Shown: positions 23,509 through 63,877 of the stretch, piece after piece
Position numbering within the stretch: the first letter of the stretch is position 1
Layout of the letters: each line of letters begins with the position of its first letter
Assembly: GCA_028286345.1 (NCBI GenBank)
Contig: JAQBRT010000001.1
Location: 62,001-126,000 of the forward strand
Reading direction: 5' to 3'
Length of the DNA: 64,000 nt
DNA from: Candidatus Saccharimonadota bacterium
GTDB taxonomy: Bacteria; Patescibacteriota; Saccharimonadia; Saccharimonadales; UBA4665
Notes under the pieces: generated by a model
What the model saw: only the letters and a program-made list of their open reading frames with translations
What the model was told of the DNA's origin: nothing
Databases searched by the model: none
Translations under genes and position numbers: made by a program

Positions 23509-23961
23509 ATGAAATTACGTTACGAAACCGGCATCGCCACCATGACGCAGTTCTTGGTACTAGGCATGCTCAACCTGCTCTATGCCATTTATTCAAGTAT
23601 CCACAGTTGCCTCAACCACGACCAATGTGCCAGTAACTCTATGTTATCCATCGTATATTTTGTACTTCTTGGCGTTTGGTTTGGGTTTATTGCCGCGCTT
23701 GGCTATGCTGCCCAAGATAAGCGCAGCAAGCGGCTGAGTCAAGTCTTGATCATGGCCGAAGCTTTAGTAGCCCTGGTGGCCCTATTTAACTTAAAACACT
23801 ATGCCGATTACTTTGGGCTCGTTATTAGCGTCATCGACCTCGGACTGGCAGTCTGGGTTGGTGTACTTGCTTTCCGTCTGATGCGCTCTGGCGGTGGGCG
23901 CATTACACGGACTACGTCGCAGCGCCCGCGGCAACGCAAAAAACCTGTTACAGAAGACTAA
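23509..23961 (+). CDS. Four-span membrane protein, unknown
   Basis: 150 residues starting MKLRYETGIATM. Four hydrophobic helices are predicted (FLVLGMLNLLYAIYSSI, LSIVYFVLLGVWFGFIAALG, VLIMAEALVALVALFNL, FGLVISVIDLGLAVWVGVLA), with a basic cytoplasmic tail (RPRQRKKPVTED). An extended -10 (TGC-GATAAT) ends 7 bases before this ATG. An alternative ATG at 23500 overlaps the -10 and is rejected. Family not recognised. Confidence 0.7.
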   Translation: MKLRYETGIATMTQFLVLGMLNLLYAIYSSIHSCLNHDQCASNSMLSIVYFVLLGVWFGFIAALGYAAQDKRSKRLSQVLIMAEALVALVALFNLKHYADYFGLVISVIDLGLAVWVGVLAFRLMRSGGGRITRTTSQRPRQRKKPVTED

Positions 23962-50108: not shown

Positions 50109-50135
50109 TTAGCACTTACCCAATTTGAGTGCCAA
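50109..50135. promoter_or_regulatory. CIRCE operator of groES-groEL
   Basis: TTAGCACTT (50109-50117), 9-base spacer, GAGTGCCAA (50127-50135): each arm differs by one base from the CIRCE consensus TTAGCACTC-N9-GAGTGCTAA. This predicts HrcA repression. No hrcA is in this window. Confidence 0.92.
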
Positions 50136-50136
50136 C

Positions 50137-50161
50137 AAAAAAACACACCCTTTCGGATGTG
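50137..50161 (-). terminator. Intrinsic terminator of the GC-rich gene
   Basis: Minus strand CACATCC, GAAA loop, GGGTGTG (7 pairs, one T-G), then TTTTTTT. It abuts the CIRCE element. Confidence 0.9.
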
Positions 50162-50181
50162 CCTGAATAATCATGGAAGGA

Positions 50182-50197
50182 TGAGATTGTTAAACGT
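50182..50197. repeat. 16-bp inverted repeat, left arm
   Basis: TGAGATTGTTAAACGT, a perfect inverted match to 50843-50858. It lies in the 3' UTR of the GC-rich gene, about 20 bases before its terminator. Confidence 0.85.
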
Positions 50198-50266
50198 GGT
50201 GGTGGCCGAGGCCGGGGGTAGCTCACGCCAGTGTTGCAGCGCAAGCCACCCCCAGACCTCAGTCCA

Positions 50267-50728
50267 CTACGCGGAAGCCATGGCCTCCAGGTCGATGATC
50301 TCGACGTCCTTGCTGGCGGTTGCCGGCTGGGTCAGGTCGATGACCGGAGGGTTGACGTTGTTGCCGTGCTTGCCTGCCTTGGTGCTGTCGGTGTACAGCG
50401 TGGTTCCCTTCCGGGGTTCGGATGCGCGCTTGCGCTTGTCCTCCTCGATGAGGCGGAGCTTGCGGGCACGACGGGACTCACGGGGCGGTACGGCGGGGCA
50501 GATGGCGCTGAGCGGGATGGTGTTGTCGACGGCGGTGTCGACGGTGATGCGGGTGTCGTCGGCTGGCGGACAGCAGGCGAGCTGTGCGTTGAGCTCGTGT
50601 GGGTCGAGGTAGTTGACCTCCACGCGCAGGGCAGAGCCGTGATTCTTCCATGCCTTCTTGCACTGGCCATCTACCTCGCTACGCGGGGCTGGCACGGACA
50701 GGTCGGCACGTTCCATCAGTTGTGTCAT
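50267..50728 (-). CDS. GC-rich hypothetical protein (153 aa)
   Basis: Begins MTQLMERADLSVPAPRSEVD. Soluble, no signal. Four cysteines (DGQCKKAW, LACCPP and SAICPA), a very basic middle (RESRRARKLRLIEEDKRKR) and an acidic/hydrophobic end (KDVEIIDLEAMASA). Third codon positions are overwhelmingly G/C (GTC, ATC, ACC, GAC, CTC), unlike neighbouring genes, which suggests recent transfer from a high-GC donor. The minus strand is chosen because it has an AT-rich promoter, a long leader, a GGGGAG site 7 bases before ATG and an intrinsic terminator. Family not recognised. Confidence 0.68.
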   Translation of the reverse strand: MTQLMERADLSVPAPRSEVDGQCKKAWKNHGSALRVEVNYLDPHELNAQLACCPPADDTRITVDTAVDNTIPLSAICPAVPPRESRRARKLRLIEEDKRKRASEPRKGTTLYTDSTKAGKHGNNVNPPVIDLTQPATASKDVEIIDLEAMASA

Positions 50729-50957
50729 TAGTTCTCCCCAGAACTAAACTATGGGCGACAAGTCGCTTGCAGCTCACCAGTATGGAAGCAATAAACGTCC
50801 GTCTTTAGACCGGCGCTCGTTGCTTCCATACTTTCCATACTAACGTTTAACAATCTCAAGGTGCGTGTTCCCGAATCTGTAAGACTCAAGAGAACAATGC
50901 GTATAATTCGCCGTATGTAGCACACATGTGGGCCACTCACAGTGAATTATTTCACTG
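50729..50957 (-). promoter_or_regulatory. Structured ~225-base 5' leader of the GC-rich gene
   Basis: Successive potential hairpins on the minus strand: CAGTGAA-ATAA-TTCACTG at the 5' end; GTATGGAAGCAA paired with TTGCTTCCATAC (12 bp) around a smaller inner stem; GCGA-CTTG-TCGC; and TAGTTCT-GGGG-AGAACTA directly before ATG, holding the Shine-Dalgarno in its loop and 3' arm. An extra GTATGGAA copy allows alternative pairing. No protein gene is seen in this stretch. Confidence 0.5.
50843..50858. repeat. 16-bp inverted repeat, right arm
   Basis: ACGTTTAACAATCTCA, the reverse complement of 50182-50197. It lies in the 5' leader of the GC-rich gene, so the two ends of that mRNA could pair. Confidence 0.85.
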
Positions 50958-50985
50958 ATTATACGCCCCAATTATAAAAATGCAA
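50958..50985 (-). promoter_or_regulatory. Promoter of the GC-rich gene
   Basis: -35 TTGCAT (50985-50980), 16-base spacer, -10 TATAAT (50963-50958). The -10 lies in one arm of a 9-bp inverted repeat (GCGTATAAT at 50899-50907, ATTATACGC at 50958-50966), so a TATAAT also faces the other way. Confidence 0.7.
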
Positions 50986-59336: not shown

Positions 59337-61805
59337 ATGAAACGATGTTTGATGCTGGCTGCGCTTACGTTGCTATTGTTACCCCTGAAAAGCGGTGCCC
59401 AGGCGGCAGCGGGTAGTAATGCTTGGGCAAACCCACAGCAAATGGCCCTTAAAAACATCACTCCGGCCCATATCCCAGAACGTTACCACACGCTGCAAAC
59501 CGAAAACTTTGCTTGTCAGGACCTTAGCCCACCTCAGATTGGTGGCGGCAATAGCGCTGGCTGTTTTATTGTCACCGCCTTTGGCCAAGAGGATGTGGAG
59601 AGCAACCGGGCGATCTTTGCCGGTACAAGCGGCGTGGCGCTACCGCTTACACCGTTTATTGGTGGCCAGGTCCTGATTGGCTGGCCTGGCTCCGATACTG
59701 TCCTCGCCCTCACCAGCCTGCCAAGTGGTGGCGTCCAAATTGGGATGTACCGATTTTTTACCGCGGCATTAACAGATCAAACCAATATCATTGGCCAAGT
59801 AGTAGGCAAGCGGGTTAACCGGGCGCCGGACGTAATCCTGAGCGATGCCACCAACCGGACACTAGTATTTAACCCCAACTCACTGGCATTTTCTGACCGC
59901 GGCGGCTGGCTAGTTGGGGAAACGCTAAATGCCGGGGCTGTCAGGATAAACCTTGCGACCCTAAGCACGCTGATATTTGCACCGAGCTTAAGTGATTCGC
60001 AGCTCGCAATAAGCGACGATGGGCACTACGCCGCCGTCGCTAATCGGGCTACTGTAAGCTTTAGGGTGTTTGACCTTACAAACTGTTCGGCTGGCAGCTG
60101 TCCGTCTTACAATTACTGGTCGTTTTTGAGCGGCCAGTTGCCGTCAGGCTTTGCCCCGGCACACCTCCGTTTTCTAAATAACGGGCTACTGGGCTTTCAC
60201 GCCAATAGCGGCCCACTCGAAGCAAATTACCTGCTCGCTCCCACCGATCACATTGATGCCGCCCTGTCGTATCTGGGTCTTGGTGACTCATTTGCAGCCG
60301 GTGAAGGGGCAGGGCAGTATCGGCCAGGAACAGATACGGTGGCCAACAAATGCCATCTTTCGGCGGTGTCGTATCCATTCCTAGCCCGTGCTGCGCTTTA
60401 TACTTCGGTGGCAGCTAATTCGGTCGCCTGTTCTGGGGCCGTCATAGACGATATTGAGCCCAGTAAAACCTCCTCGGCCAATACCGGGCCAGACGATACC
60501 TACAATAATCTGCTCACAAGCTTTATGCCGGGCTCCCTGGCACAATCAGCATTCGTCAGCCAATACCAGCCTGCGCTCATTACCACCCAAATCGGCGGTA
60601 ATGATATTGGTTTTCACGACATTATTATTGAATGTGTCATGCTGCACGCCCGGCGCAGTAACAGCTGTTATAACTCCTACGAAGACCGCCTAGAGCTAGC
60701 CGACTTAATCGACCGGACGCTGCCAAAACTGACTAGGCTATATAAGCAGCTAAAAGCTCATTCGCCGCAAAGCACCTTGTATGTGGTTGGCTACCCAGAA
60801 ATTGTCACCCCTGGTAACTGTGCCGATAATGTTCGTTTGGACGCCAGCGAAATACAGCTAGCGGGCTACCTTATACATCATCTCAACGCCGCCGTTGCCG
60901 AAGCCACAAAGCAGTCGGGTGCCACATACATCGATGTCAGCCAAGCTTTTGTAGGGCACCGCCTCTGTGAAGCCGCCAGCGCAACCCTAGCAGTCAACGG
61001 CCTGACTGCCGGGAACGACACCGGATTGGTGCTGCCCCGTGGCTTGGGCGGCGGTAATTTAAACTTTGTGAGCAACGGCAGCTATCATCCTAATAACTCT
61101 GGCCAGCAACTGCTTGCCGCCCTCATTATTGCCCGTTTGCGGGGCGCGCCCATACCGGCCAGCTCAAATGCCTACACGCCGGCTGCATCAGATAGTACTG
61201 GCTTGCTCAGCGCGCCTAAAACAAACCGGCCACTCACTGCCCTAATGTTCCGGCACGTTACTTCAGGCAATATCGCGCCGGGCCAAGCACTGGTTATTGG
61301 GTTCGAGGGGCAGGGAATTGGCCTGCGGCCAAACACTGACTATACCGTGCGTCTTGATGGCTCAGCAGGTGCGATGATAGGAACGGTGCACACCAATAAC
61401 AGCGGCCAGGTGAATACGACTGTTCCCGTTCCAGCCAGCCTAAGCGACGAGCAAGTGCATACTGTTGACATCATAGACCCCAACCAAGCCGGCGAACTGG
61501 CGGATGTCCGACAGGTGATTACCCTGAGCACGCCACCGGTGGCGGTGGTTTTGCCTACCGGTAACATACCTGCCGTAGCAGAAACGAACACCGCAAATGC
61601 ATCAGTGTCTGTCAGTAGCCTCTCGCCCAAGGTGCCACCCGGCCAATCGGGCAGTGTATTAGGTGCCGCAACAAGTAGTAGTTTGAACCAGGACTGGCCG
61701 CCGTTGCGGGTGGTTGTATGGCGCCCTTACGCCTATCTGTTAACTGTGCTGTGGACAACCTATGCCGTTACGCAGCTCTGTCGGAGCCGAGTTGTAGTAC
61801 AATAA
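59337..61805 (+). CDS. Secreted SGNH-hydrolase-domain protein
   Basis: 822 residues. Signal-like N terminus (MKRCLMLAALTLLLLPL ... AQAAAG). Residues ~40-300 are a beta-rich, propeller-like domain. Residues ~312-610 are an SGNH/GDSL hydrolase: GLGDSFAAGEGAG (G316-D317-S318), TTQIGGNDIGF and SNGSYHPNNSGQQLL (block V with His). An immunoglobulin-like segment follows, then a C-terminal span (AYLLTVLWTTYAVTQL) and a short basic tail, so it should be anchored with the enzyme outside. Likely an esterase or deacylase of surface polymers (inference). CATAGT ends 8 bases before this ATG; GTG 59331 is an alternative. Confidence 0.86.
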   Translation: MKRCLMLAALTLLLLPLKSGAQAAAGSNAWANPQQMALKNITPAHIPERYHTLQTENFACQDLSPPQIGGGNSAGCFIVTAFGQEDVESNRAIFAGTSGVALPLTPFIGGQVLIGWPGSDTVLALTSLPSGGVQIGMYRFFTAALTDQTNIIGQVVGKRVNRAPDVILSDATNRTLVFNPNSLAFSDRGGWLVGETLNAGAVRINLATLSTLIFAPSLSDSQLAISDDGHYAAVANRATVSFRVFDLTNCSAGSCPSYNYWSFLSGQLPSGFAPAHLRFLNNGLLGFHANSGPLEANYLLAPTDHIDAALSYLGLGDSFAAGEGAGQYRPGTDTVANKCHLSAVSYPFLARAALYTSVAANSVACSGAVIDDIEPSKTSSANTGPDDTYNNLLTSFMPGSLAQSAFVSQYQPALITTQIGGNDIGFHDIIIECVMLHARRSNSCYNSYEDRLELADLIDRTLPKLTRLYKQLKAHSPQSTLYVVGYPEIVTPGNCADNVRLDASEIQLAGYLIHHLNAAVAEATKQSGATYIDVSQAFVGHRLCEAASATLAVNGLTAGNDTGLVLPRGLGGGNLNFVSNGSYHPNNSGQQLLAALIIARLRGAPIPASSNAYTPAASDSTGLLSAPKTNRPLTALMFRHVTSGNIAPGQALVIGFEGQGIGLRPNTDYTVRLDGSAGAMIGTVHTNNSGQVNTTVPVPASLSDEQVHTVDIIDPNQAGELADVRQVITLSTPPVAVVLPTGNIPAVAETNTANASVSVSSLSPKVPPGQSGSVLGAATSSSLNQDWPPLRVVVWRPYAYLLTVLWTTYAVTQLCRSRVVVQ

Positions 61806-63123: not shown

Positions 63124-63264
63124 ATCCGGCCTATTTTAACAGGTTGGCGGCTCCTACCCTGAAATATTTGTTTTTTTTGGATGAGTGTATGAATCGCGAG
63201 TAAGTAAAGCCCCCGCTATTTTTAGATAAATTTCAAATTGTAATGATAAGGGTGAATCAGGGGT

Positions 63265-63376
63265 AGGTCGGCAGTGGATGCGAGGGGGAGAACCCACTGC
63301 CGACCTGAACCCCAGGGGTGACCTTTCGGTCGTGAACGGTGTAGCCTTGTAGGCTACTCATCTGCCCGTTCGGCAG
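63265..63376 (-). other. Array of four hairpins downstream of the GC-rich secreted gene
   Basis: Plus coordinates: 13-bp stem 63265-63277 with 63294-63306; GACC-TTTC-GGTC (63320-63331); GTAGCC-N5-GGCTAC (63341-63357); CTGCC-N5-GGCAG (63362-63376). None has a clear T-run. They may protect the 3' end of the mRNA or form a separate structured RNA. The rest of 63124-63388 shows no gene. Confidence 0.5.
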
Positions 63377-63388
63377 GTGTTGGGGGAC

Positions 63389-63658
63389 CTAGTTGCAGGA
63401 CCTCACTGCGACGAACTTGTCGTTCTTGATCGCGCCTCGCACGATGATGTCCGTGGCGGTGATCTTGATGTTGCCAGGACCGAAGTCGTTGGCGTTGTTG
63501 CCGGGGGCGTTGGACGAGGGGTCGTCCGAGAGCTTCTGGCAGGTGCCGAACGTCAGGTGCTCGTCAGCGGGTGCCGCGGATGCGGTAGCGGTGCTGGTGA
63601 ACATGAAGCCACCGGTGAGGGTGAGCGATACAGCGGTGAGCTGCAGGGCTTTCTTCAT
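63389..63658 (-). CDS. Small secreted protein, GC-rich codons
   Basis: 89 residues: MKKALQLTAVSLTLTGG, a signal peptide with TATASA-A as the likely cleavage site. The mature protein of ~60 residues is Asn/Asp-rich (SSNAPGNNANDFGPGNIKIT) with two Cys (LTFGTCQKL and the terminal RSCN) that could pair. Codons are G/C-ended almost throughout (ACC, CTC, GAC, ATC, AAC), unlike the neighbours. AGAGGA lies ~8 bases before ATG, and a consensus promoter is upstream. It resembles small exported actinobacterial proteins in composition only. Function unknown. Confidence 0.75.
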   Translation of the reverse strand: MKKALQLTAVSLTLTGGFMFTSTATASAAPADEHLTFGTCQKLSDDPSSNAPGNNANDFGPGNIKITATDIIVRGAIKNDKFVAVRSCN

Positions 63659-63710
63659 TTGTTGATCCTCTCAACTGTGTCATAACCTCTGGTGGTCTTG
63701 ACTGCGCGCT

Positions 63711-63739
63711 ATTATACTACTAATGTTAATATTTGTCAA
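63711..63739 (-). promoter_or_regulatory. Consensus promoter of the small secreted protein gene
   Basis: -35 TTGACA (63739-63734), 17-base spacer, -10 TATAAT (63716-63711). The leader is about 47 bases. Confidence 0.9.
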
Positions 63740-63800
63740 TGTTGGGACTAGTATTATTTGCCTAGACATGCTAGAATTACCCCTGTTGCTCAAAAAATGA

Positions 63801-63877
63801 GCACCCGTAGCTCAGCTGGATAGAGCGTTGGCTTGCGGAGCCAAAGGTCGTAGGTTCGAATCCTGTCGGGTGTACCA
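63801..63877 (+). tRNA. tRNA-Arg (anticodon GCG)
   Basis: 77 bases including CCA. Acceptor GCACCCG/CGGGTGT (G1-U72 wobble), D arm GCTC/GAGC, anticodon stem TTGGC/GCCAA with loop TTGCGGA (anticodon GCG, reads CGC/CGU), T arm GTAGG-TTCGAAT-CCTGT, discriminator A, and A20 in the D loop as expected for Arg. An extended -10 (TGC-TAGAAT, 63772-63777) lies upstream. Confidence 0.95.

Follow-up and report, generated by a model that had tools for sequence, protein, structure and literature searches.

What does a perfect 16-bp inverted repeat do around a single orphan gene of high GC content? The question is raised by gene X, whose unit is placed between murE and groES in the 64,000-nucleotide stretch analysed here (hereafter the window, C2:62001–126000). 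The genome carrying it, labelled G000 (G001 upward are other genomes), measures 0.90 Mb in three contigs and is 98% complete. The initial annotation had left two explanations side by side: a cargo cassette acquired from a high-GC, possibly actinobacterial genome, or an mRNA in which the two ends pair with each other. The usual bacterial mRNA has open ends and a short life. We favour a reading of the second kind and give a probability of about 0.7 to the repeat being an mRNA end clamp, arranged like the processing stalk of precursor 16S rRNA and one of a class in Saccharimonadales.

By MurE comparison, the closest named relatives of this genome are Candidatus Saccharibacteria. The genes murE and groES are adjacent in much of Saccharimonadales, with an interval of about 70 bp to 3 kb whose gene content varies by genome (L007, L010, L011, L026, L033, L034, L047–L065). 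When this interval was compared in relatives, as had been proposed, X proved not to be conserved at the locus and was absent from every relative's murE–groES interval compared.

Gene X (50267–50728, minus strand) encodes 153 amino acids and was identified from its open reading frame and codon-position pattern. Its GC content by codon position (0.65/0.48/0.83) is that of a genuine, high-GC coding gene; in a longer open reading frame antisense to X, GC peaks at codon position 1 and the codon fit is poor. X had been described as using codons unlike those of its neighbours. This holds for the third positions, where its GC content (GC3, 0.83) ranks third in a genome with a mean of 0.54 (s.d. 0.07; 809 genes), but its fit to the window's own codon table (0.72) lies above the median, and the oddity is one of GC3. 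The protein is hydrophilic (GRAVY −0.60), with an Arg/Lys-rich middle and an acidic C-terminus. Searches gave no credible homologue in Pfam, PHROGs, PDB, phages, plasmids or viral contigs, the last tried with the whole protein and its halves, and none was found by a pattern scan of GTDB contigs or in about 390 genomes of Saccharimonadales. AlphaFold, run on the single sequence, returned an uninformative model (pLDDT 56). The coding sequence of X may be of foreign origin.

Read along the minus strand, the X island would form a self-contained transcription unit with an mRNA closed on itself. The likely promoter (50958–50985, read from the sequence) has −35 TTGCAT (50985–50980) and −10 TATAAT (50963–50958) separated by a 16-nt spacer. 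The initial annotation had given the unit its own promoter; the −10 element is perfect, but the −35 element is weak and a consensus scan did not report the promoter. The structured leader upstream of the clamp (50859–50951), noted from the outset, was borne out by RNA folding, with z −3.2 for 50859–50965 and 0 of 200 shuffles equally stable. It is followed by the 5′ arm, TGAGATTGTTAAACGT on the transcript strand (50843–50858), and, just inside this arm, by a long stem-loop of GTATGGAAGCAA and TTGCTTCCATAC (50779–50832); the region 50729–50858 folds with z −4.5. At the start of X, a ribosome-binding-site hairpin, UUAGUUCU-GGGG-AGAACUAA (50728–50747; pair probability 0.5–1.0), holds the Shine–Dalgarno sequence in its loop and stem. 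Directly after X, a 3′ hairpin (50204–50266) reaches z −5.5 as coding-strand RNA, compared with −0.05 as opposite-strand DNA; because it uses G–U pairs, it is exceptionally stable only as coding-strand RNA. Beyond it lies the 3′ arm, ACGTTTAACAATCTCA on the transcript strand (50182–50197), identified, like the 5′ arm, as an exact inverted repeat and by folding. The terminator that had been attributed to the unit was found at 50141–50164, just before the groES CIRCE operator (50110–50136, read from the sequence), which it adjoins, so that read-through from X into groES is not expected. The fold of the whole unit has z −6.9, or −3.1 against first-order Markov controls, values that are subject to the tendency of high GC alone to favour strong folds. 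In the whole-transcript ensemble the two arms pair with a probability of 0.81–1.0.

The arms are exact, as first described, and are the only two exact copies of their sequence in the 0.9-Mb genome; weak DNA matches to the arm region in three other genomes (G026, G071, G079) fall within unrelated coding sequence or next to it and were dismissed as chance. The repeat is the longest inverted repeat in the window, the second longest being a perfect 14-bp repeat at 59779–60613. In simulated windows, exact inverted repeats of 16 bp spaced within 1 kb numbered 0.017 per window, in line with the original estimate of about 0.015. Across the whole genome, one such repeat is not rare (0.25 expected at spacings of 250–1000 nt), and X might therefore be an ordinary horizontally acquired gene with a repeat beside it by chance. 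However, three exact 16-bp repeats were observed at these spacings, and perfect repeats cluster around genes with very high GC3: four of the 809 genes lie inside a repeat of score at least 14, and three of those four are among the ten genes of highest GC3 (P 5.4e-6). These counts, and the covariation in relatives with conserved arms that is described below, make coincidence a poor explanation.

The initial annotation had described X as a single-gene island. X does not stand alone: at least five further units of the same design occur in the genome, giving at least six in total. They share one order: promoter, leader hairpin, arm, hairpins, one or more high-GC orphan genes, 3′ hairpin and matching arm. 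Their arm sequences mostly differ between units and are complementary within each. A genome-wide scan for repeats around GC-rich DNA ranked X second, behind a unit at C2:209876–210355 with arms CAGGAATAGATTGG and a 74-aa acidic open reading frame. A unit beside ftsA (C1:19924–20761, arms TGACAATGGAATAAGC) contains a gene of 223 aa with a C-terminal zinc ribbon (C1:19996–20667, minus strand). Two tandem units (C2:775949–776820 and C2:776908–777363) have GACAAGTAG in common in their arms, after which four adjacent pairs differ with pairing kept (probability 0.87–1.0). Finally, a two-gene unit with a 600-nt leader occupies C2:324880–327700 (L090 4880–7700); no other kilobase of the genome is as structured as this leader, and the arms pair at 24 of their 25 positions. 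The arms of X pair in the whole-transcript fold and its GC3 exceeds that of the genome, the latter being a usual, not universal, property of the class; from its layout, the same-genome units and the repeat and GC3 statistics, X would be a member.

Several observations were made beside these units. The zinc ribbon of the 223-aa protein shares about 60% identity with the C-terminal end of proteins of about 940 aa in relatives, probably class II ribonucleotide reductases; of the weak homologues of the 223-aa gene, one third match the C-terminal ribbon only and were set aside. An imperfect 45-nt inverted repeat (C1:19848–19892 and 23637–23681, 3.7 kb apart) encloses this unit together with ftsA and ftsZ. 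The two-gene unit adjoins an adhesin-like gene, a large serine recombinase and a tRNA, likewise in G066, and an Rfam LOOT RNA above the gathering score lies downstream of it (L090 11700–11815). Within the window, another high-GC orphan gene (63389–63658, GC3 0.87) encodes an 89-aa secreted protein between tRNA-Ser and tRNA-Arg. Its region (63170–63820, minus strand) has its own promoter and a long 3′ hairpin, and no clear arms were found there; the clamp thus does not go with every such gene.

The second gene of the two-gene unit leads beyond this genome. Of 393 genomes of the order, 14 (own genome counted) encode homologues, many of which are flanked by the same clamp, with 5′ AACAARTCRRATYATTACAG and 3′ about TTGTAATGATCTGATTTGTT; three low-GC3 homologues (L125, L126, L128) had no clamp in the available flanking stretch. 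The 5′ arm motif AACAARTCRRATYATTACAG was found in 44 of 295 genomes, representing 25 genera, compared with two genomes for the reversed control. In the window's own genome, only the two-gene unit carries this motif, while X and four other units have arms of their own; the X arms show no clear relationship to those of the conserved-arm family. In the helix of 23 full conserved-arm units, 97% of cells are paired and compensatory changes on both sides occur at 6 of 18 pairs. None of 500 shuffles reached these values, and slid registers paired at 21–39%. The 17-bp core contains 33 G–U and 2 A–C combinations in coding-strand orientation, counts that come from related sequences and are not independent events. 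A site acting at the DNA level would lack such polarity, and the G–U pairs therefore point to pairing at the RNA level. For the conserved-arm family, arm pairing in RNA is thus shown by covariation among the aligned sequences. For X it is predicted, since a gene without homologues yields no covariation of its own arms.

These data also bear on the other explanation first offered, in which the 16-bp repeats would serve either as recombination sites or as the terminal inverted repeats of a non-autonomous transposon, with X as cargo from a high-GC donor. The perfect terminal repeats and foreign composition of X fit such a mobile cassette, as do the variable murE–groES interval in relatives and the differing cargo between units. 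MITE-type elements and integron cassettes are likewise repeat-bounded and contain a foreign-looking gene. However, arms that differ between units of the same genome, with only two exact copies of those of X, argue against a shared transposase, and the G–U pairs of the arm family follow coding-strand polarity, unlike the repeats of such elements. No target duplication is present, as had been noted; the flanks are GGA and AGG, at best AGGA/AGGT. The promoter, outside the repeat, belongs to the common layout. A search for the Y1 family found no transposase of this type in the genome, and an IS200-type element was dropped on this ground. An integron cassette was also discarded: the X arms contain GTTAAAC/GTTTAAC, but no GTTRRRY follows the 3′ arm, and the units have no attC. 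The arms are not a shared recombinase site, and X has no homologue among the phages, plasmids and viral contigs searched, the GTDB contigs scanned by pattern or the ~390 genomes; movement by the repeat out of an actinobacterial genome is not supported, and a mobile cassette is unlikely. The proposal of an mRNA with paired ends gained good support instead, from the distinct self-complementary arms of the same-genome units and from the compensatory changes and coding-strand G–U pairs of the related unit type.

The closest known counterpart of this clamped mRNA is precursor 16S rRNA, whose processing stalk resembles the X unit in having a promoter, a leader, perfect arms at both ends and a terminator. 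In two relatives (G048 and G189), the pre-16S rRNA has a leader, perfect 15–17-bp arms and a terminator. The units differ in that they enclose protein genes and have arm sequences unrelated to the rRNA arms. That the conserved arms descend from rRNA processing stems was considered and rejected because the rRNA arm sequences differ, and X itself is not a pre-rRNA, as its unit encloses a coding pattern and gives no credible Rfam match. The same absence of a credible Rfam family match applies to the units generally. Large structured Rfam RNAs (OLE, ROOL, GOLLD and others) are similar in being long folded transcripts with a terminal helix, but the units hold a genuine protein-coding codon pattern.

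A second likeness is to hok and other type I toxin mRNAs, which combine end pairing with a sequestered ribosome-binding site, as X does. In these mRNAs, activation involves 3′-end processing and refolding (PMC8309996). By analogy, the clamp could silence the message until its 3′ end is trimmed, with X being a toxin or a dose-critical protein. However, hok-type mRNAs encode tiny membrane toxins and are accompanied by an antisense RNA, while unit cargo is large and varied, with some proteins above 500 aa and often two genes. X itself is a hydrophilic protein of 153 aa, not a small hydrophobic toxin, and no antisense RNA gene was identified at X by reading the sequence. A control mRNA of this kind is therefore improbable.

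For the rRNA-like clamp, the following mechanism can be proposed. The leader arm (50858–50843) and the trailer arm (50197–50182) would form a helix of 16 bp. Stable hairpins flank it on the inner side of each arm, another covers the ribosome-binding site, and the terminator lies just outside. Given that the pre-16S rRNA of relatives has the same design and that the genome encodes RNase III, recognised by its signature motif, we propose that both ends of the mRNA are shielded from nucleases by the clamp, as the stalk would do for pre-16S rRNA, and that the RNase III of the cell probably trims the clamp as it would rRNA. Hidden and trimmed ends would make a few mRNAs highly stable, and translation would then be set by the ribosome-binding-site hairpin. 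How stable the message is, whether it is trimmed and what X does are matters of inference.

End-clamped mRNAs with orphan, usually high-GC cargo are apparently an undescribed class of Saccharimonadales; searches of openly licensed papers turned up no account of such units, and one may exist elsewhere. If real, rRNA-like messages for orphan proteins, be they in the membrane, secreted or small and soluble, would amount to a new mode of organising gene expression in ultrasmall epibionts, and the clamp would mark, by sequence alone, uncharacterised proteins of possible importance to life as an epibiont. Saccharibacteria that can be cultured and genetically manipulated are available (PMC10633639), which makes the clamp testable.

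The 23 full conserved-arm units are 1.3–3.7 kb long, and GC is higher inside than outside in all 23 (0.59 versus 0.47). At E 1e-4, the 46 unit proteins (own genome included) form 31 groups, the largest being the family to which the second gene in the two-gene unit belongs. Many cargo proteins start with a signal peptide or membrane segment, as read from the sequence. X and the other own-genome unit proteins have no homologue among this cargo, apart from a weak match for the 223-aa protein (E 0.03). Cultured Saccharibacteria live on Actinobacteria, and one could imagine the units as messages for the host cell, i.e. nuclease-resistant clamped mRNAs with actinobacteria-like codons that are delivered to and translated by the host. 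We regard this as highly improbable; if true, unit GC3 would follow the GC of the host and not that of the epibiont. Cargo genes that follow the arm motif span GC3 values of about 0.3 (some units of one genus) to 0.9. High GC is thus common in clamped cargo and not required by the clamp, and, as AT-rich genes are also enclosed behind this motif in some units, the clamp does not explain the high-GC codons. The AT-rich genes (GC3 ~0.3) were seen behind the motif at L163, L165 and L167 (G197, G255 and G228), and the same genus has units at GC3 0.7–0.8.
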